Source of the DNA: Beijerinckia indica subsp. indica ATCC 9039
GTDB taxonomy: Bacteria > Pseudomonadota > Alphaproteobacteria > Rhizobiales > Beijerinckiaceae
Assembly: GCF_000019845.1 (NCBI RefSeq)
Contig: NC_010578.1
Location: 1-64,000 of the forward strand
DNA length: 64,000 bases
Direction: 5' to 3'
Below the pieces are notes generated by a model that saw nothing but the letters and a program-made list of their open reading frames with translations, was not told where the DNA came from and searched no databases. Below, piece by piece: positions 22,744-42,468 of the stretch. Positions within the stretch are counted from its first letter, which is position 1. Each line of letters starts with the position of its first letter. Both the position numbers and the translations under genes were made by a program.

Positions 22744-22956
22744 CTGGAGGATTATTTTACGAGCGACCCAGCTGGCTATTTCAAGGGAATGGTGAAGAAA
22801 GCCGAAAAAGGCGAACTCTTCCTGGAAGGCTCCTTCTGGACACTCCGTAAAGCCAATGCTGGCAAAAGACTTTGGGCGTTGAATATGGCGTTCATGCCAC
22901 GACACATGCGTCATCAAGGGGCTCGAAGCACAGATGGACGCTTATGTCCCTGGTAG
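22744..22956 (+). pseudogene. RepC-like C-terminal fragment (left copy)
   Basis: An open stretch from 22744 to the TAG at 22954 reads EDYFTSDPAGYFKGMVKKAE and then GELFLEGSFWTLRKANAGKR. This resembles the PAGYFRxMxxxAxxGELxLxxS segment near the end of RepC-type replication proteins. An in-frame TAG directly precedes it, and no start or N-terminal part is present. A shortened version of the same sequence lies at about 44165-44250 in the same orientation. Its last bases overlap the 3' end of the biotin carboxylase gene on the opposite strand. It is a remnant, not a gene. Confidence 0.5.
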
Positions 22957-24491
22957 GCTAACTCGTTTGGTGATGGAAGCTGCGGCTCACCTGTGGATCT
23001 TGCAATGGCACAGGGAGGATTACCTGTCCATGGGTCTTCAACACTTCTACTCTGACGCACTTTGATGCCATCGGGGGCGTCTAGCTCATCGGGCTCGTCT
23101 GCTTCCTCGGCTTCGTTCATATTTGTCTCAACGGTCAAGACGACGTCTTCAGCCACCGCTGCGAGAAATGCTTCCAGCCAGTGGATGCTATATTGGCCGT
23201 TCTGGATGTCGGCATTATTGACCAGCCTCTGAAACAAGGGAATCGTTGTCTTGATCCCGTCAACGATGAATTCGTCGAGGGCGCGGCGCAGCCGCATCAA
23301 GGCTTCCTTGCGGTTGGGACCATGAACGATGAGCTTACCGATAAGGGAGTCATAGGTTGGTGGAATCTTATATCCTGCATAGGCGGCACTATCGATGCGA
23401 ATGCCGATGCCACCAGGCGTATGATATTGGCCGATCCTGCCGGGTGAGGGTGTGAATGTGGTGGGATCTTCGGCATTGATCCGGCATTCTATGGCGTGAC
23501 CGCGAACGACCACCTGATCCTGGATAATGGATAAGGGCTGGCCCGCTGCGATCTTGATCTGTTCGTTGACGAGATCAAAGCCCGTGATCATCTCTGTCAC
23601 TGGATGCTCGACCTGAATGCGTGTATTCATCTCAATGAAGTAGAACTTGCCATCCTTGTAAAGAAATTCGATCGTGCCGACGCCTAAATAGCCGAGTTTA
23701 CGCATTGCTACGGCGCAGATTTCGCAGATTTCCTCGCGTTGCGTTTCATCGAGCACGGGGGAAGGGCTCTCTTCCCAGACTTTTTGGTGACGCCTTTGCA
23801 GGGAACAATCGCGCTCGCCAAGATGGACCGCATTGCCGCGCCCATCGCCAAGAACCTGGATTTCGATATGGCGAGGGTTTTCGAGATATTTTTCGAGATA
23901 GACCGAGCCATCACCGAAGGCAGCCTTTGCCTCGCTGGAGGCGGTCGCGACCGCGCTGGCAAATTCATCCCGGCTATGGGCTACTTTCATGCCGCGTCCA
24001 CCGCCTCCCGAGGCGGCCTTGATCAAGACAGGAAAGCCAATGCCCTCTGCGATGTCCAAGGCCTCTTCGGCATGATTGAGCGCGCCAGACGAGCCCGGAA
24101 CGCAGGGAATGCCGAGACTGATCGCGGTGCGTTTGGCTTCGATCTTATCGCCCATGATGCGGATATGTTCGGGCTTTGGACCGATGAAGGCGATATTATG
24201 CGCGGCGAGGATTTCGGCGAAATGCGCATTTTCGGACAAGAACCCATAGCCAGGATGGACGGCTTCGGCGCCCGTGATCTGGCAAGCCGCGATAATGGCT
24301 GGAATGTTCAAATAGGATTCTCGAGCGGGGGGCGGACCGAGACAGACCGATTCATGCGCAAGCTTGACATGCATAGCTTCGGCATCGGCGGTCGAATGAA
24401 CGGCAACCGTGGAAATCCCGAGCTCCTGCGCAGCTCGTAGAACACGCAGAGCAATTTCGCCGCGATTGGCAATGAGGATCTTACTGAACAT
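22914..24491 (-). CDS. accC: Acetyl-CoA carboxylase biotin carboxylase subunit with C-terminal extension
   Basis: A 525-aa biotin carboxylase. It starts [17 protein letters not shown] (canonical), which is why ATG 24491 (GGGGA six bases upstream) is preferred to 24497. The ATP-grasp domain has [14 protein letters not shown], then [20 protein letters not shown] and [16 protein letters not shown], holding the ATP and bicarbonate residues; the C-terminal biotin carboxylase domain ends near [11 protein letters not shown] tail of about 70 extra residues follows, acidic ([14 protein letters not shown]) then irregular, and unlike AccC; it extends into the RepC-like relic and may be recently acquired read-through. 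No biotin carrier or carboxyltransferase gene is present here. A plasmid copy would raise malonyl-CoA supply for the neighbouring polyketide synthases. Confidence 0.85.
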
Positions 24492-24718
24492 ACGCATTCC
24501 CCTCTTGTATTTTTATATCATGTATAGCTCACGCTATTGTCTCGAAATCAAAAGAGGTCCTGGCGGCGATGAAGTCTGGCTACGACATCGCCGATTATCC
24601 TAATCGGATAGGAAGTTCCGTTTCACTGAGTCTAATGCGCGGAGGAGTGAAGTGCTGACATAGACCGGGGTGGTGCCCCTTTCACTTCCCTCTCACTCAC
24701 GTGGCATTGACTTCTATG
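24492..24718. other. Gap between accC and devB-like gene
   Basis: About 230 bases separate the accC-like gene from the exporter genes, on the same strand. No terminator is obvious, so accC could be the last gene of the operon or have its own promoter here. Confidence 0.3.
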
Positions 24719-25777
24719 TCATTGACTTGGTCTCATCTCGGCGAAGCTGGGGCCACTCAAGAAATAGGCGTCTACCCGCAGACCGATCGGGAGCCTGACG
24801 CCAGGATCGAGATCGATCAATACTTGCAACACCTTGGTGTCGACCCGATCAGCAGGGCGACCTGTCATCACTTGTTTGGCGCCCATGCGTGTCGAGACGC
24901 GATAGACTGTGCCGCCGAATTTCTGATCCGGGAATGCATCGGCCGTGATCTCGACGCGCTGGCCGACCGTGGCCTGGCTGACATCGGTCTCATCAACTTC
25001 CGCGCGAACGCGCAGGCCATGCAGATTGCCGATGAGTGCGATGGGTGTCGGTGGCTGGTTCGTGACAGCTTCACCAGCGATGCGAACGCGGCGCAGAACG
25101 ATCCCGGCGATCGGGGAGCGGATGAGAGTCTTGTCGAGGAGTGCGTCCGCCAAGGCTACATTGGCCTCGGCGAGGCGGACCTGGGCGCGTGCCGCCGCAA
25201 TATCTTCCGGCCGTGTGCCTGCCTCGAGGAGGGCCAGCCTTTCAGCCATGACTTCGCGCCGCGCCGCAGTCGTATCGAGATTCGCCGTCGCCACGTCGAG
25301 AGCCGCCATTGTCGAGGCGCCCGTCTTTGCAAGGGGGACGCGGCGCTGATATTCGACGCGGGCGAGTTGGAGATTGGCTTCGGCTTCCTTCAGAGCCGCG
25401 CGTGCCTCCTTTCGTTCCTCGGAACGGGCGCCATTGATGCTCCGTTCGAGTTCTGCCTGCCTTAAGGCCAACTCCGCCCGCGCTGAGGACAACCTTGCAA
25501 CCTGCTCGTCATTCTCGATCACCGCGATGATTTGTCCTTCATGCACTTCGTCGTTTTCTTCGACACGGACCTCGTGGATGATGCCAATCACCTGAGATCC
25601 GATTTCACGCTCCTCGCTGACAGGCTCGACCAGCCCGGGAGCCGCGGCCAAATGCTGTCGGGACACCGGACTGATCGAGGGTTGCGTCTGCGCAAAGGTT
25701 GGCGCTTGCGCGGGCCATACTATGGCTACCAAGCCAAGCGAGGTCAGGAGCACCATGGCGAGCCAAGAGGTTTTCAT
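24719..25777 (-). CDS. DevB-like membrane-fusion protein of ABC exporter
   Basis: A 352-aa periplasmic adaptor (HlyD/RND membrane-fusion type). It starts with a signal/anchor segment (WLAMVLLTSLGLVAIVWP), then a barrel-sandwich half with GLVEPVSEEREIGSQVIGII. A long alpha-helical hairpin rich in Ala/Glu/Arg covers about residues 105-220, and the second half has DKTLIRSPIAGIVLRR, matching the lipoyl-like closing strand. Its start overlaps the stop of the ATP-binding protein gene (ATGA). This MFP plus MacB-like permease plus LolD-like ATPase arrangement is that of DevBCA, which in heterocyst-forming cyanobacteria exports glycolipids through TolC. No TolC gene is present here. Confidence 0.85.
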   Translation of the reverse strand: MKTSWLAMVLLTSLGLVAIVWPAQAPTFAQTQPSISPVSRQHLAAAPGLVEPVSEEREIGSQVIGIIHEVRVEENDEVHEGQIIAVIENDEQVARLSSARAELALRQAELERSINGARSEERKEARAALKEAEANLQLARVEYQRRVPLAKTGASTMAALDVATANLDTTAARREVMAERLALLEAGTRPEDIAAARAQVRLAEANVALADALLDKTLIRSPIAGIVLRRVRIAGEAVTNQPPTPIALIGNLHGLRVRAEVDETDVSQATVGQRVEITADAFPDQKFGGTVYRVSTRMGAKQVMTGRPADRVDTKVLQVLIDLDPGVRLPIGLRVDAYFLSGPSFAEMRPSQ

Positions 25778-26502
25778 GACGAATGTCCCATTGTAAGACT
25801 TTGAGAATCTGGAAGAATACTTGAACGCTCGACAATGCGACCGTCCTCGAGATGCACGACGCGATCTGCGAAAGGAAAAATTCGGGGATCATGTGTCACG
25901 ATGACAACGGCGCGATGCTGGTGATGAGCCAGCATACAGAAGAGTTCCATGGCCTTGAGGCCTGTCTCGGCATCGAGGGCAGCGGTCGGCTCATCGGCCA
26001 TGAGGATGGGCGGATCGCTGGCAAGGGCGCGGGCGATTGCGACGCGCTGTTTCTGGCCGCTGCTGAGCTGCGCGGGATAGCTATCAAGACGGTGTCCGAG
26101 GCCCACGAGTTTCAGAAGCTCATGCGCGCGTTCCTGGGCGGCGCGTCTCTTCACCCCCAGGAGATCGAGCGTGACCATGACGTTTTCCGTGGCCGTGAGC
26201 ACGGGAAACAAATTATAAGCTTGAAAAACAAAGCCGAAATGTTGCAACCGCAGCGAGGCAAGTTGCTCCTCGTTGAGCGATTGTGTCGTTTTCCCACGCA
26301 GATCGATGATCCCTGCGGTCGGCTTGAGAAGGCAGCCGAGGATATTGAGCAGCGTGGTCTTGCCACTGCCGGATGGACCCACGAGCATTAACACCTCGTT
26401 GGTATAAATCTTGAGATCGATCTCTCGCAGCACCGTGAAACGTGTGGTGCTGGAGCCGAATGTATGCGTGATGTTGGAGGCAATGACGACCGGCTGTTTC
26501 AT
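25774..26502 (-). CDS. DevA-like ABC transporter ATP-binding protein
   Basis: A 242-aa ABC ATPase of the LolD/MacB/DevA subfamily. Walker A is GPSGSGKTT (42-50), the Q-loop region is FGFVFQAYNLFP, the signature is LSSGQKQRVAIARAL (variant LSSGQ instead of LSGGQ), and Walker B is ILMADEPTAALD (about 166-177), followed by the VIVTHDPR switch His. The frame is open 35 codons further upstream, but ATG 26502 begins a normal N-terminus and overlaps the permease stop. It powers the exporter formed with its two neighbours. Confidence 0.9.
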   Translation of the reverse strand: MKQPVVIASNITHTFGSSTTRFTVLREIDLKIYTNEVLMLVGPSGSGKTTLLNILGCLLKPTAGIIDLRGKTTQSLNEEQLASLRLQHFGFVFQAYNLFPVLTATENVMVTLDLLGVKRRAAQERAHELLKLVGLGHRLDSYPAQLSSGQKQRVAIARALASDPPILMADEPTAALDAETGLKAMELFCMLAHHQHRAVVIVTHDPRIFPFADRVVHLEDGRIVERSSILPDSQSLTMGHSS

Positions 26503-27707
26503 CGAAACACCTTCACGGGGTCTATGGCTGTGACCTTGTTCAGGGATACCAATGATGCGCTGATGCACATCAAGATGGTGATAACCCCGATCCCCGAGGC
26601 GAGCCATAAAGGCACTTGCGGAGGGGAGCTGCTGTTGCGAGAGAGATAGGCGAGCAGCAGGACAACGCTAATGCCGGTCAGCCCCCCCAGAACCCCGCCA
26701 ATGACGGCTTGCTTGATCACGATTTTATACAAATAGGATCGTGGGCCGCCCATGGCCCGGACAACGGCATATTCTGGCAGCCGGTCCAGAGTGCTCGCAT
26801 AGAGCGTCTGTGCAACGATAACGACACCCACCAGGAGCGCCAGCAAGGATGAACTGATAAGTGTGATACCAGCACCCGTCGTGAATAACCAATAACTCCG
26901 GCTCCTGTGCGAGAACTCGTCCGTTGGCAGCACGTCGACATCCGGCATGCGTGTGGAAAGTGCCCGGATGACGGGTTCGGGTGCCTGTCCTTCCAGAAGC
27001 TTGATCAATACATAGGTTATGTCTTTGTCGCCAAGATCCGACAGCAGCCTCGCATTGCGCAGCGATGTGAAGACATAAGGTGCCTGGGTAAAGGTCCGGA
27101 TGCCTTCGGTAAAGCCAGCGACGCGGGCGCGGTGATTGTTGATTTCGACGATTTGACCAATGGATGTGACGCCGAGTTTCTGCGCATAAAGGCGATCGAT
27201 GATCACTCCATCGGGGGTCGACAGGGCATCATGGACATTCTGACCAGGCGTCATTGACGGCAGCAATCCCATTTCGGCATTTGGTTCCACGCCAATGACG
27301 AGGACCAATTCGCGAACGCCGTTGGATCGTTTCCAAGAGCCGAAATGCAGCAACATCGGCTCGGCCTTGGCGATCCCATCGACAGCGAGCGATTGGAATC
27401 GTCGCCGCTCTTCGATCGGGGTCGCGAGATCGACGCTGCGCACTCCTTGCACCGCGACCCAGAGATCCGCGCCGGCCTGATCGACGATCGTCGAGGTCGT
27501 ATGCATGAAATTCAGCAACATGCCGAGCTGAATGCCCATCAAAACCGTCGAGAAAGCAATACCGACGAGCGTTACGGCGAAACGGACCCGGTCATGAACG
27601 AGGTTGCGCCACGCGATGAGAAGCGTCAGGCTTGAATGCCCACGCGGGACTGCCTGGGGGCGCTGGAAACTCTTGGTGAGTAGGCCGACACTATCTGCTG
27701 AAGACAT
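26499..27707 (-). CDS. DevC-like FtsX-family ABC permease
   Basis: A 402-aa permease with four transmembrane segments in MacB/FtsX topology: one near the N-terminus (FAVTLVGIAFSTVLMGIQLG), a large periplasmic domain (about 65-270) and three near the C-terminus (ISSSLLALLVGVVIVAQTL; AVIGGVLGGLTGISVVLLLA; LASGIGVITILMCISASLV), as in DevC. It ends IDPVKVFR, the usual DevC/FtsX ending. Its ATG overlaps the TAA of the small upstream ORF by one base (TAATG), and its stop overlaps the ATPase start. Probably moves a lipid product made by the adjacent synthases. Confidence 0.85.
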   Translation of the reverse strand: MSSADSVGLLTKSFQRPQAVPRGHSSLTLLIAWRNLVHDRVRFAVTLVGIAFSTVLMGIQLGMLLNFMHTTSTIVDQAGADLWVAVQGVRSVDLATPIEERRRFQSLAVDGIAKAEPMLLHFGSWKRSNGVRELVLVIGVEPNAEMGLLPSMTPGQNVHDALSTPDGVIIDRLYAQKLGVTSIGQIVEINNHRARVAGFTEGIRTFTQAPYVFTSLRNARLLSDLGDKDITYVLIKLLEGQAPEPVIRALSTRMPDVDVLPTDEFSHRSRSYWLFTTGAGITLISSSLLALLVGVVIVAQTLYASTLDRLPEYAVVRAMGGPRSYLYKIVIKQAVIGGVLGGLTGISVVLLLAYLSRNSSSPPQVPLWLASGIGVITILMCISASLVSLNKVTAIDPVKVFR

Positions 27708-27952
27708 TAGCGGGACTCCGCAAAGTTCGCTGTCCTGTTGCCAGAGATCCGCTTTGGGAACTTCAGCCGCAGTTGAAGAGGCAATCCATCGATATCGCTT
27801 CCAAAAATTCGTTCCGATGTTGCCGCGGTCTGGTCATATGCCCATGTATCCGGCATGGTGCCCGCACTCGCAAGTCTAGGCATAGATACACAAATGGTTA
27901 TGCCGCAAAGGCGAAATCGCAAGATATCGAGCATCGTTTGTTGTCGCATCAT
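27707..27952 (-). CDS. Putative small exported protein
   Basis: An 81-aa frame (M at 27952 or 27949) begins with MMRQQTMLDILRFRLCGITI, then CVSMPRLASAGTMPDTW, which looks like a signal peptide ending ASA-G. The mature part has no recognised domain. AAGAAGAG lies about 8 bases upstream of the start. It sits between the glycosyltransferase and the permease and its stop codon overlaps the permease start, as in a translationally coupled operon member. The frame is also open 18 codons upstream, overlapping the end of the glycosyltransferase gene. It is either a small periplasmic partner of the exporter or a chance frame; position and signal favour a real gene. Confidence 0.5.
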   Translation of the reverse strand: MMRQQTMLDILRFRLCGITICVSMPRLASAGTMPDTWAYDQTAATSERIFGSDIDGLPLQLRLKFPKRISGNRTANFAESR

Positions 27953-27965
27953 CAATTTTCTCTTC

Positions 27966-29342
27966 TTATGAAGCTCTAACACGGCTTGTTGATCCGTATT
28001 CTTCACCGAAGCGTCGATTGAGTGATAGATTTAGGTGTTCCAATATATTGTTTGCCATGTGCTCGGCGCTGAACCGTGCCGCCAGCGCCCTGGTGTTCGC
28101 GGCAAGTTCCGCATGGAGATCATCATCCTTCAGCAGGCGCTCGAGCTGCCGTGCCAGATCGGCGCTGTCCCAGGTCTTGAATGTCAAGCCACCGGCAATG
28201 TTTCCATGCTGGATGACTTCCGTCACCCCGCCAATGTCTGGGACCAGCACAGGCGTCCCTTGGCTCATGGCCTCGGCGACAACCAGCCCGAACGCCTCCC
28301 GATCAACGGAAGGGTAGACGATACAGCGACTATGCGCGTAGAGAGCGTCACGCACCTCGAACGAAACAGCACCACTATGGTTGATGACGAGCTTCAAATG
28401 ACTCGTGAGATCGTTGATGACCTTCTGATACGAACGCCCTTTTGCAGTGGAGCCGCAAATGACGAGCTGCAGGTGAACGCCGCGTACTGCCAAAAGTTTT
28501 GCTGCATAAAGTAAAAGGTCGATTCCCTTCTCGCTTTCCTGGCGTCCAATGAATGTGACAATGGCACCGTCTTGGGCATCGTCTTGCCTCACTTTCGGAA
28601 AGGCCGTCTTGAGGATTGAAAAGGGAAGCCTCTGCTCCTGTTTGGGGAGGTCGATACCGTTATAGATGACCCGGAAGCAATTAGGGTCCAGCCCGAGCTC
28701 AGTGACAAGACGTTGAAGATAATCCCGGCTGATCGCTATTGCGGGCCAGCCCGAGTTGCGGACCGCTTCGTCCAGCCGGCGCCGATAGTTTTGGAGCAAT
28801 CCGGCTTTTGCGGCGAAATCGGCAAATTGTTCATCACCCTGGAACGTAACGAGATAATCGAGCGGCACTTTGCAAAGCTTCTTAACCTCGAGGGCCAGGG
28901 GGCTGATGGAGCCGAAACTCATCATCAGATGCGTAACGCCGTCCAACTCCACATATTTAAGCAATCTCTTGACAAGCGAAGGATCAGGATCCGACTCCGT
29001 ATAAAGCGAGCGCATGAGGTTTTGCAGAAGACGATCGACAAAGCCGGGAATGTTTTGGACGATATTGGTGCGCCAGCCTTTCGGGAAAAAAGACAGAAGC
29101 GGTCCAACTATTCTGTCCAAAAATTCGGACGGTTGCTTGAATTGATATCGTGTGCCGTAACAAAGAATCCTCTGTTCGATCCCATTGATGACAAGGTCAG
29201 GATTATGCTCGAGCATCCAATAGATTACGACCTTGAAACCACGTTTGTACAGGGAATGAGCGAGCGTTAGGTCCCGAATGGTGGAACCCAGATACGATCC
29301 ACTTCCTATAGTGACAAAGGCAAAGGTTGGGTTCTGTGCCAT
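27966..29342 (-). CDS. Glycosyltransferase family 4
   Basis: A 458-aa GT-B glycosyltransferase. The N-terminal half holds FVTIGSGSYLGSTIRDLTLA, and the C-terminal half AIVTFIGRQESEKGIDLLLYA with the E-x7-E motif in EAFGLVVAE (about 349-357), where the glutamates bind the nucleotide sugar. It lies between the dehydratase/PPTase gene and the exporter genes on the same strand. The context suggests it glycosylates the lipid product before export, but acting in exopolysaccharide synthesis is equally possible from sequence alone. The ribosome-binding site is weak. Confidence 0.8.
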   Translation of the reverse strand: MAQNPTFAFVTIGSGSYLGSTIRDLTLAHSLYKRGFKVVIYWMLEHNPDLVINGIEQRILCYGTRYQFKQPSEFLDRIVGPLLSFFPKGWRTNIVQNIPGFVDRLLQNLMRSLYTESDPDPSLVKRLLKYVELDGVTHLMMSFGSISPLALEVKKLCKVPLDYLVTFQGDEQFADFAAKAGLLQNYRRRLDEAVRNSGWPAIAISRDYLQRLVTELGLDPNCFRVIYNGIDLPKQEQRLPFSILKTAFPKVRQDDAQDGAIVTFIGRQESEKGIDLLLYAAKLLAVRGVHLQLVICGSTAKGRSYQKVINDLTSHLKLVINHSGAVSFEVRDALYAHSRCIVYPSVDREAFGLVVAEAMSQGTPVLVPDIGGVTEVIQHGNIAGGLTFKTWDSADLARQLERLLKDDDLHAELAANTRALAARFSAEHMANNILEHLNLSLNRRFGEEYGSTSRVRAS

Positions 29343-29473: not shown

Positions 29474-31363
29474 CTATCCAAAAATTGTATAGGCTGACTC
29501 GCTTTTGTGACCAAAACTCGAATGTGGCTGACTTGCATAGGCGATGATGAAGCCACAGTCCTCCACGGTCTTCACCTCAAAGGAGCGAGCGCTTGTCTGA
29601 TGCTTGATCTCAATCCGCCCGCCGTTTTCCAGCTGGATTGCTTCGAACGCTTGAGGCAAGCCATTGATCCCTGTGCCCAGAAGCTTACCGGTGGCCTCCT
29701 TGGCGCACCAGAGTCGTGTAATCCATGTCTGGTGTTCCACCTGTGGAAACTTTGCAATCAAGTTACGCTCGTGTGCCGTGGTAAAGGCCTGGATGAAGCT
29801 GGCATCGTGTTCGGCGATACGCTCAATATCCACACCTACGGCTTCGGTATGCGCCACGGCTATTGCTCTGGTCTCACTGTGAGCGATGCTCACGAGTGGC
29901 GGCGTATTGCACCCCGGGAGCGCCCTGACGAATGGGCGTCCCTGTCCATCATTATCAATGGTGAAGGCTGCGGGATGCAGCATGGGAGCCTGCGTTTGCT
30001 CGGCGGCCCACAGACGCACGGCGTCCTTGGCCACGACGCGCCCAAGCAGCCATTGTTTCTGGCGTTGGGGGATACGGGCATGACCGTTAAAGACTGGCAT
30101 TTCTTCCATGCTCAAGCAATGCCGCGCCAATATGCTGAAATCAAAATTTTGAAACTCGGCAGTGGTCACCGTCAGGCATACGGATCCGTCGCCCGAGTTG
30201 GGCAGAGGCGCCGCTCGGCCAAGCAGGTATTGGTCGGGAAAGCGGCGGAAATCCACTAGGCATTGCTCCCAGTTGAACTTCCAGCTTCCCCAATCCACGA
30301 TGCGCATCCACACGGCGCCAGCGCCGTCCTGGACCTCGACATTGGCGAGGAGCCGCTTGCCTTCTGTCTGGGTGATCTCCACCCGCACTGGAACACGGGT
30401 CCCAACCGGGGGGGAGGGGCAATAGATCTCGAGTTTCGCAAGACCAATGGGGAAGACATAGCGGCCATGCTCCATGGCCCAGACGCCTAAGATCTGGCCG
30501 ATGCCATCGAGCAAAGCCGGGTCGATGAGGAGTTGTGGGCTACGGGTTGACCCAAACAGGTCCTCAGGGGAATGCCTGACGAATTCACCTATAATCCCAT
30601 GATCACCGACGATGATCTCACCGGACAGGCAGTGAAAGCTCGGTCCATGAAACATATGGCGCTCGCCATAGATCTCTTCACCGGTGAGAGGATGCCGATA
30701 GGGATTGGCCAGTTCGGTGAAAGCGGGAGATAATTCGATGAGATAGTGATCGCCAAACAGCACCATCGCGCTGATCGCGGGCCGGGTCTGCCCCTCGATA
30801 AAGACCTCGACCCTGATGAAGGAGGCGCCGCGATCTTCGTCATGGCGATCGACCCGCGCCGTGATATGCAGCGTCAGGACATCCGTATCCGCCAATTCGA
30901 TCCAACGGGTGGCCTTGACGTCTTCAAAGCCCAGCAAGCCATAGCCGGGGACGAGACAGGCCGCGACCTCCGCCATGACTTCGAGGCTCATGGTCATGGG
31001 CAGCACTGGCAGGCAGGCGGAGGCTGGCTTGACGCCTGGCGCATGGACGAAGGCATGATCGGCGAGGTAGCGATCCCCCTCCAGCGTCAAGTGCCGCTCG
31101 ACTGTGATGGTCTCCCCTGGAACATAGGCCAAGACCGGGCCCAGAAAAGGCAGAATGGCCTCGTTCTGGGCCTCATCCATTGTTGCTGTGTGGACAGGCT
31201 GGGACGCCGTGCTCGAGGGGGTAGGAATTGGTGGCTCGGGGTTTCCAAGGTCCTCATGCACGGCCACGGCCAGGGCCAACTCCTCCGCTGCTCGGGCCTC
31301 GAACACACGTCCGATCAATGGCAAGTCGCCGACACTTGGCTGCTTCGGGACAGGGGTTCCCAT
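29474..31363 (-). CDS. Polyketide synthase dehydratase fused to 4'-phosphopantetheinyl transferase
   Basis: A 629-aa fusion protein. Residues of about 80-390 match hot-dog dehydratase domains of PKS/PUFA-synthase-like systems: the segment FLGPVLAYVPGETITVERHL is followed by RYLADHAFVHAPGVKP with a catalytic-type His, then PVLPMTMSLEVMAEVAACLVPG; a second hot-dog half follows with GERHMFHGPSFHCL. Residues of about 410-610 are a Sfp-type phosphopantetheinyl transferase with AVGVDIERIAEHDASF and WCAKEATGKLLGTG, the Mg2+/CoA-binding motifs. It would dehydrate the beta-hydroxyacyl chain and activate the synthase's ACPs. AGGGAGGT precedes ATG 31363. A small piece of this gene's start is duplicated at 33125-33160. 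Confidence 0.85.
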   Translation of the reverse strand: MGTPVPKQPSVGDLPLIGRVFEARAAEELALAVAVHEDLGNPEPPIPTPSSTASQPVHTATMDEAQNEAILPFLGPVLAYVPGETITVERHLTLEGDRYLADHAFVHAPGVKPASACLPVLPMTMSLEVMAEVAACLVPGYGLLGFEDVKATRWIELADTDVLTLHITARVDRHDEDRGASFIRVEVFIEGQTRPAISAMVLFGDHYLIELSPAFTELANPYRHPLTGEEIYGERHMFHGPSFHCLSGEIIVGDHGIIGEFVRHSPEDLFGSTRSPQLLIDPALLDGIGQILGVWAMEHGRYVFPIGLAKLEIYCPSPPVGTRVPVRVEITQTEGKRLLANVEVQDGAGAVWMRIVDWGSWKFNWEQCLVDFRRFPDQYLLGRAAPLPNSGDGSVCLTVTTAEFQNFDFSILARHCLSMEEMPVFNGHARIPQRQKQWLLGRVVAKDAVRLWAAEQTQAPMLHPAAFTIDNDGQGRPFVRALPGCNTPPLVSIAHSETRAIAVAHTEAVGVDIERIAEHDASFIQAFTTAHERNLIAKFPQVEHQTWITRLWCAKEATGKLLGTGINGLPQAFEAIQLENGGRIEIKHQTSARSFEVKTVEDCGFIIAYASQPHSSFGHKSESAYTIFG

Positions 31364-31405
31364 ATGTCTACCTCCCTACTCAACAATTATCTCTTCATTC
31401 AACGC

Positions 31406-32837: not shown

Positions 32838-33160
32838 TCATATCTTCTCCAGCATCAATCCTGTGACTGTCAGGCCAGGCCAGGCCAGGCCAGGCCGGAA
32901 GCCGAGGCCTGCGATGTGTGCCACTGGGATTCTGGGCTCTTCCATGGTTTTCTTGAAGATGTAAGGGGTCGTCGCCGAGGGTATGTTGTCGTGCTCGGCG
33001 ACGACGGATTTGCTGATGGCCACTTGATCCTCGTCGAGATTCAGAACGTCTTGTCCATGCATGATGATCTTTGGCCCACCCGGATACTCCTTCTGTTCAT
33101 TTGACTAAGATAAGTTGCAGGCGCCCGGCTGCTTCGGAAACGTGACAGGAAGCTCCATAT
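32838..33160 (-). pseudogene. Relic of third type III PKS and of a dehydratase gene start
   Basis: The sequence 32838-33062 is a 3'-end copy of the type III PKS (ending GLMLEKI, with AISKSVVAEHDNIPSATT in place of AISKSVFAENGNMSSATV) with no 5' part. Just beyond, at about 33108-33160, a start region reads MELPVTFPKQPGA, a relic of the beginning of the dehydratase/PPTase gene (MGTPVPKQPSVG). A tandem duplication of the unit dehydratase-start plus type III PKS, followed by deletion, explains it. The catalytic-Asn motif is changed (AEHDNIPSA), so the fragment is non-functional. Confidence 0.75.
32871..32895. repeat. CAGGC five-base tandem repeat
   Basis: Five consecutive copies of CAGGC lie within the third-copy PKS relic. 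Intact copies have only CAGGCCAGGC here, so this is a local expansion by slippage. Confidence 0.8.
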
Positions 33161-34443: not shown

Positions 34444-37400
34444 CTATTGGCGCAAGGCTAGTTGGGCGATCTGCTGTAGACTTGCAGCCACGACGATCTC
34501 GGGCTTGCCGCTATTGCTGCGTCCGAGTTCCTCAAGGCAACGCTGCCTTCCTTCTGCTACTGGTATGGGATGGATGTTCTTGGTGGCATAGAGTCTGCGG
34601 AGCTCATCGCTCACCATGCCGCCATCCCAAGGCCCCCAATTGATCGCAATCGTATGGACATGGGGCCAGTCATGGCTCAGCCGGTCGGCGAGCTTGTTCA
34701 CGACCTCATTGGCCGCGCTATAGTCGGATTGACCGGCATTGCCGAAACGGCCCGCGATGGAAGAGAAGAACATCAGGAACTTCAGGCCCTCGGGCCGTAG
34801 CTTATTGGCCAGGACCGTCGCGGGAACGACCTTGGTCGTGAACACGATATCGAAGGATTCCGGGGATTTGTCGCGGATCGACTTGTCGTCGATCACGCCG
34901 GCGCCATGGAGTACGCCGTCGATACGTCCCCAGCGTGCATAGACATCGTCGATGAGACGGCCGAAGGCCTCACCATCTCGGATGTCCAAGGTGTGATAGT
35001 CCACCTCTGCCCCGGCTGCCCGCATCGCCGCGAGATTGGCGCGGATCTGTCGGTCTCGGAGCATCCGCTTGAGGGCGCGATTGACCTCAGCTGGTGTGGT
35101 CTTCGGGTTCTGCGCGCGCAATTCGTGGATCAGATATTGCTGCAATTGCTGCGGCTCAACCAGGTCGCGGGTCGCCTTGGCTTCCTCCTCGGGCATCGGG
35201 CTGCGTCCCACCAGCACGAGGCGCGGGTGGAATTTCTCCGCGAGCGCCTGCGTGACATCGGCGGTAATGCCATAGGCTCCCCCGGTCACGAGCAGCACCG
35301 AGTTTGAATCCAGGTCCAAGGTTGAGAGATCCGCGGCGGTGGCGCTGCCTTTGCCGAGATCGAGCTTCCAGCGCTCCTTCGGGGTGAATCCTACCTCTAC
35401 CGTCTGGTCGTCATTGCCGACTTCGCGCAGCACTTCGGTGACCAGATGATGGAGGTCGATGTCGGGATCCACATCGATACATTTCACCCGTATCCCGGGC
35501 CATTCCCGGGCCACTGACTTGGCCACTCCCAAGGTTCCCGCATGCAGGGCCGGAAAGGCACGGGTCTGCCGCAGGCCGAATTGCCCATCGAAAGCGGTCA
35601 AATTGATCAACCAACCGCCGCCGATCGGAGCACTTTCCTTGAGGTCCGTTTCGAGCACTTTCAGGAGGAGGAACAAACGACGGGCATATTCGAGATGCTG
35701 GTCGTTGGCAGCATCGGCGATTGTTCCCAGACCTGCCAGGTTGAAGAGGGCGCCGACCTTTTGTCCCTTCTCAGCAATGAGCGCGCGGAGCTTGCTTACG
35801 CCGTCCAGTGAAGAGAAATCGACTTCAATGCGATCCTCATCAAGGACATGGGTGTCGGTGCCGGAAACAATCTGCCGGACGTGATAGTGCTTGGCTGTCA
35901 GCCGATCTCGGAACGCAGTCCCCAGGATCGGCACGTCGCCGACTAACAGGATCAGCCGATCGGCCGGAAAGCCGTTCATCTCGGCCATGCCATCCCGTGG
36001 GGCCGCCACGGGGGTGACGGTATAACGCTGCACTTCGTCAGCGCTTGCCATGATCTCGATTGACTCCGCTGCCTCAGGCAAGGACACCGACGACGGAGTC
36101 TGGGATTTTTTTACGGAATCGGCCCCTTCCGGCATGGCCATGCTCTGATGCAGGCCGTCATACCAGTCGATCACCGCATTCAAGGTTTTGAGACTGGACA
36201 ATTCCTCGAACACGGTCTCCTCGGCACGTCCCTCCATGAAGGGATATTGGTCCTTGAGCTTGCTGAAGATCTCGATCCGTTTGATGGAATCGATGCCGAG
36301 ATCAGCTTCCATATGGGCGTCGAGGTCCAGCATGTCCTCGGAATAGCCGGTGCGCTCGGCCGCCGCGTGCAGGAGATCGGCCTTGAACTGTTCCGTTGGC
36401 GCGAATGCTTTCTCACCGGTCGCATGAGCATCGGTCGTGCTCTTGGCCTTCAGGATGACATGATCCGCCGCAGAGCCGTTCGTTCCTACCCCGGAATTCT
36501 GTGGCGCGGCCGTCTCGAGCAAGGAGACTGACGCTGCAAGGGGAGGGATTTTTATCGGATCCGCGCCCCCTCCCGGTTTTGCCAGGGTCTGACGCAGGCC
36601 GTCATACCAGTTGATCACCGCATTCAAGGTTTTGAGGCTGGACAATTCCTCGAACACGGTCTCCTCGGCACGTCCCTCCATGAAGGGATATTGGTCCTTG
36701 AGCTTGCTGAAGATCTCGATCCGTTTGATGGAATCGATGCCAAGATCAGCTTCCATATGGGCGTCGAGGTCCAGCATGTCCTCGGAATAGCCGGTGCGCT
36801 CGGATGCCGCGCGCAGAAGATCGGCCTTGAACTGTTCGGTTGGCGCGAATGCTTTCGCATCGGTCGTGTTCTTGGCCTTGGCGCTGCCGTTTCCAGACAT
36901 TGCTGGAGCTCTCGCCGGCACGGCGTTCAGGGTGGGGGAAGCGAAAGCGGCTGGAGCGGGTTGCGTGGGTTTAGCTCCATGCGGACTTGGTGCGACCGCG
37001 AATTTCGGCAGCACGGGAGCCGGGGGGACTATTGTCGCGGCCGGTGCCCTGGCTGGGACAGGAGGAAGTTGCGCAGGAAGGGGTTGCACATTGGCTAGCG
37101 CCAACACCGAATTCGAAGGAGCGGTCATCTCCGGACGTTGTCCGGTGAGCCAATGTTCCTGGAACTCGAAGAAGCGCCTAAGGGTCTCTTGCTGTGTACG
37201 CTGCAAATCGATGAGCTGCGCTAAACTGCCTTGGACCTCGGTAAACCGCGATTCAGATCCTAAAGCATAGGCCGCTGGGGGGCTGGCGGCGATTCTCGAT
37301 GATGGATCGTAATTGGACACAACGGGTCTCCCCTCACGCTCGACAAAGGAATTTTGGCTTGCTGGTGCGGCGGTGCTCCCGCTCGCTCGCTCGGCAGCGG

Positions 37401-40400
37401 CCGGATTGATCGCGGGACGGGCTAGCCCGTTTGGCAATGCGCCATCCTGCGCTGCTTGTGTATTAATGGGCTTGTGTATGCTGGGTGCCGACAAGCTGGG
37501 TGTTTTGGGCGGTGTAGGTATCTTGGTGGATGCCTGGGAAGGGGCCTGGATGGGTGTATACCAGGGAACCGCCTTGCCGCCGTTGACGCGCCAGACCATG
37601 GGGCCCGGCTGCGCCTTTGCGCGGGCTTGCGCGAGTGTCTGTTCCAGATTCGTATCCGCCAGCCCGCGCCGCTGGAACCAGGGCTCCAGATTGATCGGCA
37701 GCCCGAGGGAGAACACTTGGGCGAGCAGATGGGCGAATTGCAGCCAGCCGGGCCGATCCGGCACGTCAATGCCCAGGCTGACATGAGGTCTGTCACCCAG
37801 GATGCGGTCCACGAGCCCGCTCAACACGAGTCCCGGCCCCGCCTCGATGAAGACCCGCGCCCCCGCTTCATAGAGATGCTGGATCTCGTCCACGAAACGC
37901 AAAGGCTCGGCGATATGGCGTGCGAGCAGGGCCTGGATCTCGCCGGGATCGTCGGGATAACGATTCCCGGTGGTATTGCTGAAGAGTGAGATCTGAGGGC
38001 GTTGGAACGTGATCTTGGCGAGTTCGGCTGCGAGAGCCTCTTGCGCCTCGGCCATGGCGGCGCAATGGAAAGCCGCCGTGACCGCAATCGGTTTGATCCG
38101 CAGGGACTCCTGGATCAAGGCCTTGACCGCCGCATCGATGGCTTCGGCAGAGCCGGCGATAATGGTCTGATCGGGGGCATTGAGATTGGCCACGCTCACG
38201 GCCAATCCAAGGCGATTGATCGCCTCAACGACCCGGGCCTCATCGGCATTGACCGCCGCCATGGTCCCGGATTCCGCCTTGGAGGTCTGCGCCGCGATGC
38301 GGCCGCGCACTTCGGAGAGCCGGATCAGATCATCGCGTGAGATCACGCCTGCGGCGCAGAGCGCGACATATTCGCCGTAACTGTGACCAGCCACGAAATT
38401 CGGCCGCAGCCCGAAGGATGTGAGGAAATCAAGGGCTGTTAAATCAATTACGCCGAGGGCCGGCTGCGCCACATGGGTATCATTCAGGGCCTTTTGCTGC
38501 TGTTCCTGCTCCTCCTTGGTGAAACTGGGCAGCGGATAGATATAGCGCGACAAAGGTTGTGGCAGGGCTTCTTTGAGCAAGGCGTCGGCCCGCTCGAAGA
38601 GCGCATAGCTAGCAGGACGTGTGAGCACGAGGTCACGCAACATGTTGATCCGTTGCGATCCCTGACCCGAGAACAGCATACAGACAGCGCCACTGTCTTC
38701 GCGGTGCTCCTGTTCCCGGTAATAGATGCCCTGCGGCGCTTTGATGCTGGTCTTGTCCTTGGATTCGCGCAGGAAGAACTCTAGCTTGGTTTTGAGATCA
38801 GCGACCGAACTTGCTACAATGGCGAGCTGGCATGTGAGCGCACCGTTCTTCGGCCGAACCCTGGCCTCATCGAGATGGACCGCATAGGCGAGCTGGGCGA
38901 GGTTCAGATGCTCGGGCTGGGCGAGCCCCTGCAATAAGGTCCTGACGGCTTGTTCGACCTCGGGGCGCTTGGCGCGGCCGAAGGCGAAAATCTCGGCGGC
39001 GCGCGGGTTCAAGTCCTGGCTGTCCGAGGGTCTATATTCGCCGCGATATTCCTCCAGGACCGTATGAAAATTGGTGCCCCCGAAGCCGAAGGCGCTGACG
39101 CCGCATCGGCGTGGCTGCCCTTCGGGCATGCCGAGCCACGGCCTGGCTTCAGTATTGATATAGAATGGTGTGTTGGGGAAATCGACCCGCGATGAGGGCC
39201 GTTCCACTCCAAGGGTTGGGGGCAGTACGCGATGCTTGAGCGCCAGGCTAGCTTTGATCAGGGCGGCCAGGCCAGCGGTCACCTTGGTATGCCCGATCAT
39301 GGATTTCACCGATCCAACCGCGCAATATTGATGCTGCGTGCTGGCGGTCCCAAAGGCGAGGTTCAGCGACTCGATCTCCGACCTGTCACCGAGCGCGGTG
39401 CCCGTGCCATGCGCTTCAATCAAGGTCACGCTGGCCGGATCCACGCCTGCATCCGCGTAAGCCCGCTCGATCGCGCGGACCTGGCCTTGAGGATGCGGAG
39501 CTGTCAGGCTGCGGTTGTGCCCGTCACTGGAACTGCCGATGCCCTTGATGACAGCATAGATCTTGTCACCGTCGCGTTCGGCGTCAGTGAGGCGTTTCAG
39601 CACCACCGCGGCGACACCCTCGCCAAGAGCAATCCCGTCGGCGCTATCATCGAAGGGACGGCAACGCCCCCGTGGCGAAAGCGCATGGGTTTGGGCGAAG
39701 GTCATGAACCCGAGAACATTGTTGGCGCCATCGACCGATCCGACCAGGGCGACATCGGCATCGCCGCTGCGCAACTGGCGGATGCCGGTATCGAGCGCGG
39801 CAAGGGAGGCGGCACAAGCGGCGTCCACGGTGAAATTGGTGCCGCGCAAGTCAAGGCGATTGGCCACACGCCCCGAGACCACATTGGCGAGCATGCCCGG
39901 AAAGGAATCTTCGGTCCATTTGGGCAAGTCGTGTTCACAGAGGGAATCGAGAATGCGTTTGCGGTTGTCCTCCGAGACACCTTCCACTTTCGGTAAGTAA
40001 TGAGTCAAAAGGGTCCGGAAGATATAGTCCATCCCGAGATCGTTCATGCCGCTGGCGGCGAAGATCGTAGCGGTGCGTTCGCGTGGGAAAGGCCGGCGAT
40101 CAAACCCGGCATCTTCCAGGGCCTTGCTCGCGATATGCAGAGCCAGAAGCTGTATGGGTTCGATGGAGCGCAGACTTGCCGGCGGAATGCCGTAGTGGGT
40201 CGGATCGAAGGCGACATCGTCGAGGAAGCCGCCCCATCTGGAATAGACTTTGTCCTTGATTCCCCGTTTAGGATCGAAAAAATCGTCTGCCCGCCAGCGA
40301 GACTCCGGCACTTCGCGGATCGCATTGACCGCGAGCATGATATTCTGCCAGTAGCTCGGCAGGTCACTCGCCCCGGGCAGCAGGGACGCCATACCCACGA

Positions 40401-42468
40401 TGGCGATGTCCTCATGCGGTTTGGGCATGGCCGGATGTTTGTGTTCGGCTTGTCTGAGTGCGGCTTGGGCCAGTACCGCTGTTGCCTCCGCGGAGACATC
40501 ATTGTGTAACTCAGCCATGCTGACTCTGGCTTTGCGCAACCGCGCCACTTCTCCCATCATATACAGACCTTCGCGGCGCTGGGTCTCTACATCAAGGCCG
40601 GTATAGCGGTCGGTGCCGTCGCTGGCCGTAGAATTGGCGTTGCGAGATACTCCTTTGGAGGCGATGCGCAGACGGCCAATGTTGAGGAGTTCCAGCTCCA
40701 TGAGGATTTGGTCGTCGGATTTGGTGTCGAGCAGCAGCTCGTTTCTTTTGTCGTCGAACTCATTGCAGAAGTTCGTTTTGGCGCAGCGGGTATAGATGCC
40801 GACACCCGATTGCAGGACGGCGGTTTCCTCGCAGGCGATGGCCTGCTCCTGAAACTCCTGCACAATGGCGCCGGCGTGAACCGCTTCCTGCGTAAACAGA
40901 TAGGCTGTCCCCATCAGTACGCCGATCTTCATTCTGCGCTCGCTGAGCGGTGCTGCCATGACCGACACCATGGCGGCCGACATGGCATTATGTATGCCGC
41001 CCGCGAACAAGACCTGGACGGATTCAGGATCCTTGATCTCGGCATTGAGCAAAGTGTCGATCGCTGAGCCCCACAGGGTAAAACTTGTGCGCGGGCCGGT
41101 GTGACCGCCACATTCGCTTCCCTCGAAGATGAATTTCCGTGCTCCTTCCTTGAGAAATTCCTTCAGGAGGCCCGGAGAAGGCACGTGCAGATAAGTGGAA
41201 ATGTTGAGATCTTCCAATTCCCGCGCCTGGCTCGGCCTGCCGCCGGCAATAATGGCAAAGGGAGGTTTGACCTCGCGGACAGCTTCCATCTGCTCTTGCC
41301 GCAGATCGAGTGGCATGAAGCCCAATATGCCCACGCCCCAGGAACGCTGGCCCATCAGCTCCTTCGCCTTGACCAGCAGCGCGCGCGCTTGGGGGCCGCG
41401 CATCACCGCGAGGGCGAGAAAGGGCAAGCCGCCTGCTTCGGCCACGGCCTTGGCGAAGGGGGCAACATCACTCACCCGGGTCATGGGCCCTTGCACGATG
41501 GGGTAGCGGGTCCCATGCAGCTTGGCCAAGGGGGAATCGGGTGCCAGGTGATTGTTGCTTCCGGCCTGGCTCAGGGACGCATCAATGGCGTTGCGCATCG
41601 CCATGATGACACTGCCGACCGTCACATAGCGCTGGCCGAAGGCGCCAGCAAAAGCGATGTCCTGTCCGACGGGCATGAGGGGATCGATGTGATCGGAGAG
41701 CTGCCGTTGCAGGAGTTCCTGCCAGCCGGCGCCTTTCGCAACAGCCAGTTCGAGTTCGCGCAACTTGCCGCGCCCATGCCGATTGGACAGACGAAACAGA
41801 TCGGCATCGCGTCCAATCGTGAGCGTTTCGCTGCCATCGAGCCGGCTCCAGAGCTCCCTTTGCCCGGGGGAGAAACAGGGGCCTTCCTGCGTCAGCCAAA
41901 GTTGTTCGGCAAGGACCACCCCAGTGGCGCCGGCTAGAACCGCCGCAGCGGCACTATGCATGCTAATTCCGCCCTGTATCCAGTAAGGAATCTTGATTGG
42001 CCCGCGCAATTCCTGCAGCAAGATGAAAGAGGACGATTTGCCGACTTGGCCCCCGGCCTCATGACCTTTTACAATCAGGCCCGCATAGCCCGCGGCCTGC
42101 GCCGCCAGAGCCGTATCCTGATCATGAACCTCCAAGAAAACCTGTTGCGCCAAGCGCTCGGCTGCCTTGAGTTGCTTCAGCACCTCATGGGTCTTAAGCC
42201 CTGCGAGTACTAGGACTGGTATCTCGCCCTGGAGGTTGTTCGCGAGCTGGTCCAAGCCGCGAGAATCTGCCCCAAATGTATCCCACCGTACTCCCCAACG
42301 CCCAACTGCACCGGTCATGCTGCGTAATTGATGGAGTGCCGCAGTGATCGCGGCGGCGTCATCCTGTAATCCCAGATCGAGAATACCAAGTTCGCCTGCC
42401 TTGCTGGCTGCAATGGCTATTTGTGGATCGATTGTATGCCAAGGTGTAATAGCAACAATGGTTTCCAT
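34444..42468 (-). CDS. Type I polyketide/fatty acid synthase (NPD-NPD-KS-AT-ACP-ACP-KR)
   Basis: A 2674-aa multidomain synthase. Two nitronate-monooxygenase-like (NPD, FMN enoyl-reductase-type) domains come first: about 1-290 with GHEAGGQVG (His136) and about 310-640 with GSECGGHTG (Cys453, His456). KS follows (about 712-1190, catalytic Cys885 in VDAACAAS, EAHGTG His near 1020, MIGHTK His near 1058), then AT (Ser1363 in GHSYGEY), two nearly identical ACPs with LGIDSIKRIEI (Ser1913, Ser2061) separated by Ala/Pro-rich linkers, and a C-terminal KR (VTGGAYGITADV; Tyr2583 in DYSAAN). The dehydratase is in a separate gene. Domain content resembles PUFA/heterocyst-glycolipid-type iterative synthases and Azotobacter ArsA. 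It would build a saturated or partly reduced acyl chain for the type III synthases. GGGAG lies eight bases before the ATG. Confidence 0.9.
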   Translation of the reverse strand: METIVAITPWHTIDPQIAIAASKAGELGILDLGLQDDAAAITAALHQLRSMTGAVGRWGVRWDTFGADSRGLDQLANNLQGEIPVLVLAGLKTHEVLKQLKAAERLAQQVFLEVHDQDTALAAQAAGYAGLIVKGHEAGGQVGKSSSFILLQELRGPIKIPYWIQGGISMHSAAAAVLAGATGVVLAEQLWLTQEGPCFSPGQRELWSRLDGSETLTIGRDADLFRLSNRHGRGKLRELELAVAKGAGWQELLQRQLSDHIDPLMPVGQDIAFAGAFGQRYVTVGSVIMAMRNAIDASLSQAGSNNHLAPDSPLAKLHGTRYPIVQGPMTRVSDVAPFAKAVAEAGGLPFLALAVMRGPQARALLVKAKELMGQRSWGVGILGFMPLDLRQEQMEAVREVKPPFAIIAGGRPSQARELEDLNISTYLHVPSPGLLKEFLKEGARKFIFEGSECGGHTGPRTSFTLWGSAIDTLLNAEIKDPESVQVLFAGGIHNAMSAAMVSVMAAPLSERRMKIGVLMGTAYLFTQEAVHAGAIVQEFQEQAIACEETAVLQSGVGIYTRCAKTNFCNEFDDKRNELLLDTKSDDQILMELELLNIGRLRIASKGVSRNANSTASDGTDRYTGLDVETQRREGLYMMGEVARLRKARVSMAELHNDVSAEATAVLAQAALRQAEHKHPAMPKPHEDIAIVGMASLLPGASDLPSYWQNIMLAVNAIREVPESRWRADDFFDPKRGIKDKVYSRWGGFLDDVAFDPTHYGIPPASLRSIEPIQLLALHIASKALEDAGFDRRPFPRERTATIFAASGMNDLGMDYIFRTLLTHYLPKVEGVSEDNRKRILDSLCEHDLPKWTEDSFPGMLANVVSGRVANRLDLRGTNFTVDAACAASLAALDTGIRQLRSGDADVALVGSVDGANNVLGFMTFAQTHALSPRGRCRPFDDSADGIALGEGVAAVVLKRLTDAERDGDKIYAVIKGIGSSSDGHNRSLTAPHPQGQVRAIERAYADAGVDPASVTLIEAHGTGTALGDRSEIESLNLAFGTASTQHQYCAVGSVKSMIGHTKVTAGLAALIKASLALKHRVLPPTLGVERPSSRVDFPNTPFYINTEARPWLGMPEGQPRRCGVSAFGFGGTNFHTVLEEYRGEYRPSDSQDLNPRAAEIFAFGRAKRPEVEQAVRTLLQGLAQPEHLNLAQLAYAVHLDEARVRPKNGALTCQLAIVASSVADLKTKLEFFLRESKDKTSIKAPQGIYYREQEHREDSGAVCMLFSGQGSQRINMLRDLVLTRPASYALFERADALLKEALPQPLSRYIYPLPSFTKEEQEQQQKALNDTHVAQPALGVIDLTALDFLTSFGLRPNFVAGHSYGEYVALCAAGVISRDDLIRLSEVRGRIAAQTSKAESGTMAAVNADEARVVEAINRLGLAVSVANLNAPDQTIIAGSAEAIDAAVKALIQESLRIKPIAVTAAFHCAAMAEAQEALAAELAKITFQRPQISLFSNTTGNRYPDDPGEIQALLARHIAEPLRFVDEIQHLYEAGARVFIEAGPGLVLSGLVDRILGDRPHVSLGIDVPDRPGWLQFAHLLAQVFSLGLPINLEPWFQRRGLADTNLEQTLAQARAKAQPGPMVWRVNGGKAVPWYTPIQAPSQASTKIPTPPKTPSLSAPSIHKPINTQAAQDGALPNGLARPAINPAAAERASGSTAAPASQNSFVEREGRPVVSNYDPSSRIAASPPAAYALGSESRFTEVQGSLAQLIDLQRTQQETLRRFFEFQEHWLTGQRPEMTAPSNSVLALANVQPLPAQLPPVPARAPAATIVPPAPVLPKFAVAPSPHGAKPTQPAPAAFASPTLNAVPARAPAMSGNGSAKAKNTTDAKAFAPTEQFKADLLRAASERTGYSEDMLDLDAHMEADLGIDSIKRIEIFSKLKDQYPFMEGRAEETVFEELSSLKTLNAVINWYDGLRQTLAKPGGGADPIKIPPLAASVSLLETAAPQNSGVGTNGSAADHVILKAKSTTDAHATGEKAFAPTEQFKADLLHAAAERTGYSEDMLDLDAHMEADLGIDSIKRIEIFSKLKDQYPFMEGRAEETVFEELSSLKTLNAVIDWYDGLHQSMAMPEGADSVKKSQTPSSVSLPEAAESIEIMASADEVQRYTVTPVAAPRDGMAEMNGFPADRLILLVGDVPILGTAFRDRLTAKHYHVRQIVSGTDTHVLDEDRIEVDFSSLDGVSKLRALIAEKGQKVGALFNLAGLGTIADAANDQHLEYARRLFLLLKVLETDLKESAPIGGGWLINLTAFDGQFGLRQTRAFPALHAGTLGVAKSVAREWPGIRVKCIDVDPDIDLHHLVTEVLREVGNDDQTVEVGFTPKERWKLDLGKGSATAADLSTLDLDSNSVLLVTGGAYGITADVTQALAEKFHPRLVLVGRSPMPEEEAKATRDLVEPQQLQQYLIHELRAQNPKTTPAEVNRALKRMLRDRQIRANLAAMRAAGAEVDYHTLDIRDGEAFGRLIDDVYARWGRIDGVLHGAGVIDDKSIRDKSPESFDIVFTTKVVPATVLANKLRPEGLKFLMFFSSIAGRFGNAGQSDYSAANEVVNKLADRLSHDWPHVHTIAINWGPWDGGMVSDELRRLYATKNIHPIPVAEGRQRCLEELGRSNSGKPEIVVAASLQQIAQLALRQ
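36178..36850 (-). repeat. Tandem duplicated ACP modules inside the synthase gene
   Basis: The two ACP-coding segments, about 36178-36420 and 36622-36850, are almost identical in nucleotide sequence, including the codons around LGIDSIKRIEIFSKLKDQYP. This indicates a recent internal duplication or ongoing conversion. The intervening linker diverges. Confidence 0.75.

Follow-up and report, generated by a model that had tools for sequence, protein, structure and literature searches.

The window analyzed here comprises 64,000 nucleotides of Beijerinckia indica subsp. indica ATCC 9039, a soil bacterium that fixes nitrogen (positions 1 to 64,000 of contig NC_010578.1), and between positions 22914 and 42468 of its minus strand we find what we interpret as a plasmid-borne phenolic-lipid cluster of the ars type (also called ‘Type P’) that is equipped with a dedicated exporter. 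We place the probability of this interpretation at roughly 0.68. In the pathway suggested by these genes, the 4'-phosphopantetheinyl transferase (PPTase) of ArsD would arm the acyl carrier protein (ACP) domains of ArsA, and malonyl units would be joined iteratively into a long acyl chain by ArsA together with the dehydratase (DH) of ArsD. From the ACP this chain would pass to the type III synthases, which would extend it by three further malonyl units and cyclize it through an aldol condensation to a 5-alkylresorcinol. A second, cluster-linked biotin carboxylase (AccC) probably boosts malonyl-CoA in concert with the other, chromosomally encoded carboxylase subunits, and a glycosyltransferase of family GT4 probably attaches a sugar to the resorcinol. 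Finally, DevC–DevA–DevB and a chromosomal TolC-type channel could transport the lipid, with or without its sugar, out of the inner membrane and onto the cell surface, in the manner of DevBCA–TolC with heterocyst glycolipids. The features concerned, with the evidence for each in brackets, are as follows.

34444..42468, minus strand: ArsA-like type I fatty-acid synthase with NMO/ER-like, ketosynthase (KS), acyltransferase (AT), two ACP and ketoreductase (KR) domains (Pfam, active-site motifs, two ACP serine motifs)
33187..34407, minus strand: ArsB/C-type type III polyketide synthase, copy a (T3a), with Cys181-His329-Asn362 and Trp279 present (Pfam, alignment)
32797..33085, minus strand: relic of a third type III synthase gene, comprising its 3' end (matched at 32838-33085) and a little of the 3' flanking sequence (nucleotide alignment)
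31406..32626, minus strand: ArsB/C-type type III polyketide synthase, copy b (T3b), with Trp279 kept, Gly180 changed to Cys and Tyr182 to His (alignment)
29474..31363, minus strand: ArsD-like fusion of dehydratase and PPTase (Pfam PS-DH and ACPS)
27966..29342, minus strand: GT4-family glycosyltransferase, candidate alkylresorcinol glycosyltransferase (Pfam, co-occurrence, GT-B matches of a predicted model)
26499..27707, minus strand: DevC-like permease of the FtsX/MacB type (Pfam, NCBIfam)
25774..26502, minus strand: DevA-like ABC ATPase (Pfam, NCBIfam; ATGA overlap with devC)
24719..25777, minus strand: DevB-like periplasmic adaptor of the HlyD/MFP family (Pfam, NCBIfam; ATGA overlap with devA)
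22914..24497, minus strand: additional copy of biotin carboxylase (AccC), extended by a C-terminal tail (Pfam, NCBIfam; adjoins ars in both Beijerinckia)
27707..28006, minus strand: frame of 99 amino acids, probably no gene (no family match; not found in B. mobilis)
21264..22511, minus strand: plasmid replication initiator (RPA), a replicon marker outside the pathway

These frames lie where an earlier note on the same DNA had described them, and the synthases, the DH–PPTase fusion, the GT4, the exporter and AccC are all well-supported genes. Specifically, the entire gene order is repeated in Beijerinckia mobilis UQM 1969 at 61-84% protein identity, so the frames of the window are not chance. 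The ATGA junctions of devC/devA and devA/devB, as well as the TAATG ahead of devC, are present in the sequence as that note had them; its devA start at 26607 is better placed at 26502, judging from the ATGA overlap. The ‘small exported protein’ that it proposed at 27707-28006 was rejected as a gene, given that this 99-residue frame with a GTG start has no Pfam or NCBIfam match and no relative in the stretches searched (best E of 0.14 in B. mobilis and 10 other stretches). With respect to the replicon, the window belongs to a contig of 66,727 bp in a genome of three contigs (66,727, 181,736 and 4,170,153 bases). This contig encodes RepA (PF10134, 21264-22511), ParA and a ParB-like protein, and it was therefore rightly called a plasmid. 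A promoter scan returned 13 hits against 9.3 expected, a terminator scan 17 against 17.0 expected, and a tRNA scan found none. A megablast search of positions 28001-34400 against plasmids gave no match, although the cluster's own records may be left out of that search.

The synthase core has the gene and domain attributes of an ars/Type P locus. Motifs for KS, AT, ACP, KR and PPTase were all detected in the synthase proteins of the window, the ArsA domain order is that of the type, type III synthases with the Cys-His-Asn triad lie between arsA and arsD, and ArsD joins DH and PPTase domains. The previously proposed kinship to Azotobacter ArsA-D is borne out by identities of 59-66% for the type III synthases (six Azotobacter copies), 53-58% for ArsA and 51-52% for ArsD. 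T3a, in particular, shares 64-66% identity with the first type III copies of three Azotobacter species and 59-61% with the second copies, and its nearest solved structures are 3vs8 and 3vs9, which correspond to ArsC and its G284W form (PMC6274091). ArsA of the window is 68-69% identical to the B. mobilis protein and 53-56% identical to that of A. vinelandii, and its domain order (NMO-KS-AT-ACP-KR) is matched by ArsA of A. vinelandii CA; ArsD is 51% identical to A. vinelandii ArsD, which shares the DH and PPTase domains. By motif, two ACPs are found in ArsA of both Beijerinckia and one in each of 16 other loci tested. A search of the genome with PF00195 matched on the chromosome only, a result that reflects the limit of this N-terminal model and not an absence of the plasmid synthases, which match Pfam only in their C-terminal half. 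B. indica subsp. indica ATCC 9039 is among the carriers of the ‘Type P’ secondary lipid synthase that Shulse and Allen (2011) list (PMC3098273). The part of the window that combines fatty-acid and polyketide synthases is very probably this listed object and, as the strain is named in that source, the synthase core was already known.

The likely product of the cluster is indicated by the residue at a single position of the type III synthases. In A. vinelandii, the W281G mutant of ArsB loses resorcinols and gains pyrones, whereas the G284W mutant of ArsC, the second copy and a pyrone synthase, shows in part the reverse, with resorcinol output up (PMC6274091). Trp279 of both T3a and T3b aligns with this position (ArsB 281/ArsC 284), so that both copies are of the ArsB type in this respect. 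Across the aligned relatives the column holds Trp in most, Gly in the Azotobacter second copies, Leu in copy 2 of B. mobilis and Glu in four Burkholderia-group rows. The presence of Trp279 in both copies suggests that alkylresorcinol would be favored over pyrone, which narrows the earlier proposal of a phenolic lipid or pyrone to the resorcinol side. Elsewhere, the single-copy type III synthases of Paraburkholderia/Burkholderia loci L035-L038 have Glu at the Trp site, and their product may differ; the synthase of P. mimosarum (L030) keeps the Trp.

At the DNA level, T3a and T3b share 93% identity; T3b, the frame of which is open up to 32683, probably starts at 32626, judging from the alignment. 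Between T3b and T3a lies a relic of about 250 bp from a third copy, with 75% nucleotide identity, including gaps, to positions 986-1221 of T3a. We considered and rejected an origin of this relic from an old gene of the B. mobilis copy-2 type, as it is 60-63% identical to T3a/T3b versus 47-55% to the B. mobilis copies. In a tree, the type III copies of Azotobacter, B. indica and B. mobilis go back to separate duplications. T3a and T3b are, however, nearly identical across their last ~320 nucleotides and far more different elsewhere, and because gene conversion could thus mimic separate duplication, we do not claim that these events were independent.

The case for a dedicated exporter comes from its conservation beside ars. 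We counted 35 ars loci, namely the window, 30 of 80 loci drawn from a wider search, the Methylosinus plasmid pMSC49a (L095) and three further genomes of the host's family; the 80 are the best of 115 confirmed, and the 30 are those in which ArsA-, ArsB- and ArsD-like genes occur together. None of the other 50 showed ArsD at the limit used, though several are on short contigs, where its absence may be truncation; among those dropped, L044 has ArsA and a type III synthase on a contig that ends, and L046 matches a KS only weakly (27%). Five places carry two labels by coordinates (G001=L015, G101=L095, G226=L018, G257=L019, G264=L016). In all 34 loci that can be judged, window included, arsD is followed downstream by an ABC exporter. 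The remaining locus (L017), which shows neither exporter type, ends 2.0 kb past arsD, and its relatives have devC 3 kb away. The exporter found after arsD is DevC-A-B in 10 loci, all alphaproteobacterial, and an ABC/FtsX pair in 24 loci of beta- and gammaproteobacteria, and never both. That a different exporter occupies the same place indicates a need for export.

A second sample leads to the same association. Among 248 genomes of the host's family, a type III synthase was detected in 9 and DevC in 14 (both at E<=1e-60), with 11 of the latter being close to the DevC of the window (62-100% identity). All 9 synthase genomes are among these 11, and the two genes are 1.8-5.5 kb apart. The hypergeometric probability of this overlap is 7e-15 by genome and 3e-4 by genus (3 of 43 genera with the synthase versus 4 with DevC), with the latter being the fairer figure. 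The earlier note had named a lack of co-conservation among the results that would refute its proposal, and neither sample refutes it. Synthase and exporter are also adjacent in L046, L051 and L065 (Chlorobium group, BMS3Bbin08), which are outside our count and in which a distant type III synthase is followed by an ABC ATPase, a permease and a LolA_like protein; this arrangement suggests that the link may predate the proteobacterial ars cluster.

The description of the window's exporter as DevBCA-like stands as regards its parts, which are an ABC ATPase, an FtsX/MacB permease and an HlyD-type adaptor, with TolC-family proteins encoded in the genome (18 OEP-domain matches on the chromosome, or nine proteins by position). 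It does not extend to membership in the curated families, as all three proteins score below the NCBIfam cut-offs (DevA TIGR02982, 241.5 against 295.8 bits; DevB TIGR02971, 113.8 against 129; DevC TIGR01185, 145 against 290.35), and DevC has no sequence match in the PDB. In cyanobacteria, DevBCA with the TolC homologue HgdD reportedly exports heterocyst glycolipids (PMC6161253). A TolC gene adjoins the Dev module in three Methylosinus genomes and lies upstream of arsA in one Methylocystis. The module of the beta- and gammaproteobacteria consists, in Pfam terms, of ABC_tran, FtsX and PF17131 LolA_like, the last of which has no match in the whole host genome at E<=0.001. DevC and the permease of this second module showed no significant match by BLASTP (E 0.12), yet both carry Pfam FtsX and MacB_PCD and the ATPases are 36-44% identical, which argues for different modules of one superfamily. 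LolA_like is present in 23 of the 24 ABC/FtsX loci, and in 17 it is followed by a protein of ~417 amino acids without Pfam match (L031 13749-15002 and relatives). The model of this protein (predicted local distance difference test, pLDDT, 78) consists almost entirely of beta structure, and its fold fits outer-membrane porins and AlgE best (TM score about 0.55), suggesting a barrel.

In A. vinelandii, the ATPase gene Avin_29510 sits just past arsD by locus-tag order. In an algU mutant undergoing encystment, Avin_29510, ArsA (Avin_29560), ArsB (29550) and ArsC (29530) are all listed with a fold change of 0 (PMC10651043, Table 3). The annotation given there is ‘ABC-type antimicrobial peptide transport system, ATPase component’, and the portion of PMC10651043 consulted draws no link to lipid export. 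In the open-access literature searched, we found no text tying the ars operon to an exporter or a glycosyltransferase.

The GT4 gene is associated with ars in a similar manner. At E<=1e-60, 10 of 640 genomes were positive for GT4, 5 of the 248 above and 5 of 392 from the family of Duganella aceris, and all 10 have a type III synthase (out of 9 and 7 synthase genomes, respectively, with one of the 7 being a weak 37% match); these searches score few first-look candidates per genome, such that weaker copies could be missed. In loci of A. vinelandii, Massilia and Methylobacter, relatives of the GT4 are near neighbors of ars. A GT2-type transferase is present in 6 of the 35 ars loci (those of the Methylocystis type and one from Methylococcaceae), and 10 of the 35 show neither GT4 nor GT2 in the stretch examined; of these 10, L028 and L034 are cut by contig ends, and in G184 the GT4 gene is 2.4 kb beyond that stretch. 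A. vinelandii makes C21 and C23 alkylresorcinols along with ‘galactosidase derivatives’ (PMC11330419), which we read as galactosides. In terms of AccC, the host has a chromosomal copy above the family cut-off in addition to the plasmid copy, and the latter shares 84% identity with the ars-linked copy of B. mobilis and 74-75% with the chromosomal-type AccCs of both species. The plasmid copy may serve malonyl-CoA supply.

Several observations weigh against a single cluster dedicated to making and exporting one lipid. Intergenic gaps of 131 bp (arsD–GT4), 258 bp (GT4–devC), 221 bp (devB–accC) and 560 bp (T3a–T3b) would allow two or more transcripts. Among the stretches examined, those of the two Beijerinckia are the only ones with AccC beside ars. 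At E<=1e-60, 4 of the family's 9 ars genomes, each belonging to the Methylocystis genus group, yielded no GT4, and none was seen in the stretch examined of five Burkholderia/Paraburkholderia loci or, at E<=1e-40, in a Methylocaldum genome; the restriction of GT4 to ars genomes may also be qualified by a 58% relative listed for Methylocapsa aurea. According to Shulse and Allen (PMC3098273), neither cysts nor phenolic lipids have been found in B. indica itself. Independent cases are few, with the DevC co-occurrence resting on 3 genera, and two genomes (G166 and G245) carry a DevC with 62-63% identity where ars genes were not found. The stand-alone DevC-A-B modules of these genomes (L127 9534-12471 and L128 9544-12520) are 57-63% identical to that of the window, and the exporter can therefore stand alone. 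Around them, queries with the other window genes and relatives' genes matched one ABC ATPase and nothing else, and a different lipid synthase may still be encoded there. Such modules, together with the scores under the Dev cut-offs, could point to an efflux pump of a general, MacB/DevBCA-like kind, placed beside ars by chance and moving a drug, another lipid or a protein. Its position after arsD in 9 of 9 ars genomes among the 248, and the other exporter type at this very place in the remaining 24 judgeable loci, make such a coincidence quite improbable.

A related question is whether the GT4 serves the plasmid's exopolysaccharide or some other acceptor, in which case the exported lipid would be free alkylresorcinol. 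The plasmid does encode a flippase, a Wzz/kinase, further glycosyltransferases, acyltransferases and UDP-glucose dehydrogenase, and GT-B enzymes use many acceptors; the predicted GT4 model (pLDDT 88) most resembles BshA and HepE in structure, the lipid enzymes PimA and WaaG rank lower, and the ars loci without GT4 or GT2 point the same way. Against this, close GT4 relatives turned up solely in ars genomes within the two sampled families (10 of 10) and lie near ars in the three further groups named above, and we judge a different acceptor to be unlikely. Somewhat less unlikely, though still doubtful in our view, is that T3b has changed in function, toward a pyrone or other ring, or is decaying, in which case the cluster would yield two classes of lipid, or fewer resorcinols than expected. 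Both residues that flank the catalytic Cys of T3b are replaced, Gly180 by Cys and Tyr182 by His, at positions invariant in 17 aligned rows (T3b not among them), and T3b differs from T3a by 33 amino-acid versus 32 silent codon changes. Second copies elsewhere have also diverged, as seen for the pyrone synthase ArsC of Azotobacter (PMC6274091) and for the Leu at the Trp site of B. mobilis copy 2. Nonetheless, the catalytic triad and Trp279 of T3b are intact and its frame is open.

Outside the cluster, the plasmid is rich in genes for surface polysaccharides. Positions 553-15951 and 55697-63999 of the window encode the flippase, the Wzz/kinase, GT9 and GT4 transferases, the acyltransferases and the UDP-glucose dehydrogenase, along with a heparinase-like protein and an Alginate_exp outer-membrane protein. 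These polysaccharide genes together with ars resemble the Azotobacter cyst make-up of alginate and phenolic lipid. Upstream of ars, positions 45462-50587 hold an FMO-like oxidase, a beta-lactamase-family protein and a sigma-54 activator, none of which has an obvious link to the cluster.

A broader proposal can be put forward tentatively, at somewhat less than even odds. The ars locus would constitute a whole surface-lipid line in which the GT4 is the alkylresorcinol glycosyltransferase (and, in Azotobacter, the galactosyltransferase of the cyst lipids). Two mutually exclusive modules, DevCAB–TolC in alphaproteobacteria and ABC/FtsX–LolA–barrel in beta- and gammaproteobacteria, would be interchangeable after arsD, and the Beijerinckia plasmid would act as a coat module that unites ars with polysaccharide and alginate-export-like genes. 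The conserved ars neighborhood supplies testable genes for export and galactosylation, also in the genetically tractable A. vinelandii. The exporter exchange, if true, would show clearly how one lipid class can be served by two strategies of envelope transport, and for B. indica a lipid class so far unreported there is predicted.

With respect to known systems, the earlier note was aware of none described with exactly this gene content. Its novelty is reduced by the prior listing of the synthase part of the same organism (PMC3098273) and by the recurrence of an exporter, and often a GT4, beside ars across the clusters examined, including that of A. vinelandii with its other exporter type. The neighborhood rule and the exporter exchange are unremarked in the open-access literature searched; the terms ‘ABC transporter’, ‘DevB’ and ‘glycosyl’ are absent from the main text of Shulse and Allen. 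The A. vinelandii arsABCD cluster has ArsA, two type III synthases and ArsD with order and domains identical to those of the window, followed downstream by an ABC exporter and a 56-57% identical GT4. It differs in being chromosomal, in having one ACP motif instead of two and Gly for Trp in copy 2, and in showing no AccC in the stretch examined. Its exporter, moreover, consists of an ABC ATPase, an FtsX permease, a LolA_like carrier and an outer-membrane-barrel-like module, where the window has DevCAB. Plasmid pMSC49a of Methylosinus sp. C49 (NZ_AP022333.1) is also similar, with plasmid-borne ArsA, type III synthase, ArsD and DevC-A-B and a GT4 nearby. Unlike the window, it has one type III copy, a divergent GT4 upstream, an adjoining TolC gene and further large polyketide synthase, and no AccC match in its 31-kb stretch. 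The cyanobacterial DevBCA–HgdD(TolC) system differs from the window in that the latter has the order C-A-B, scores under the curated NCBIfam cut-offs and lies beside a type III synthase, with which the hgl clusters are not described in the consulted sections of PMC3098273. The two systems nonetheless share an ATPase, an FtsX-type permease and an HlyD-type adaptor, in a cyanobacterial host that likewise has a PfaA-like long-chain lipid synthase.

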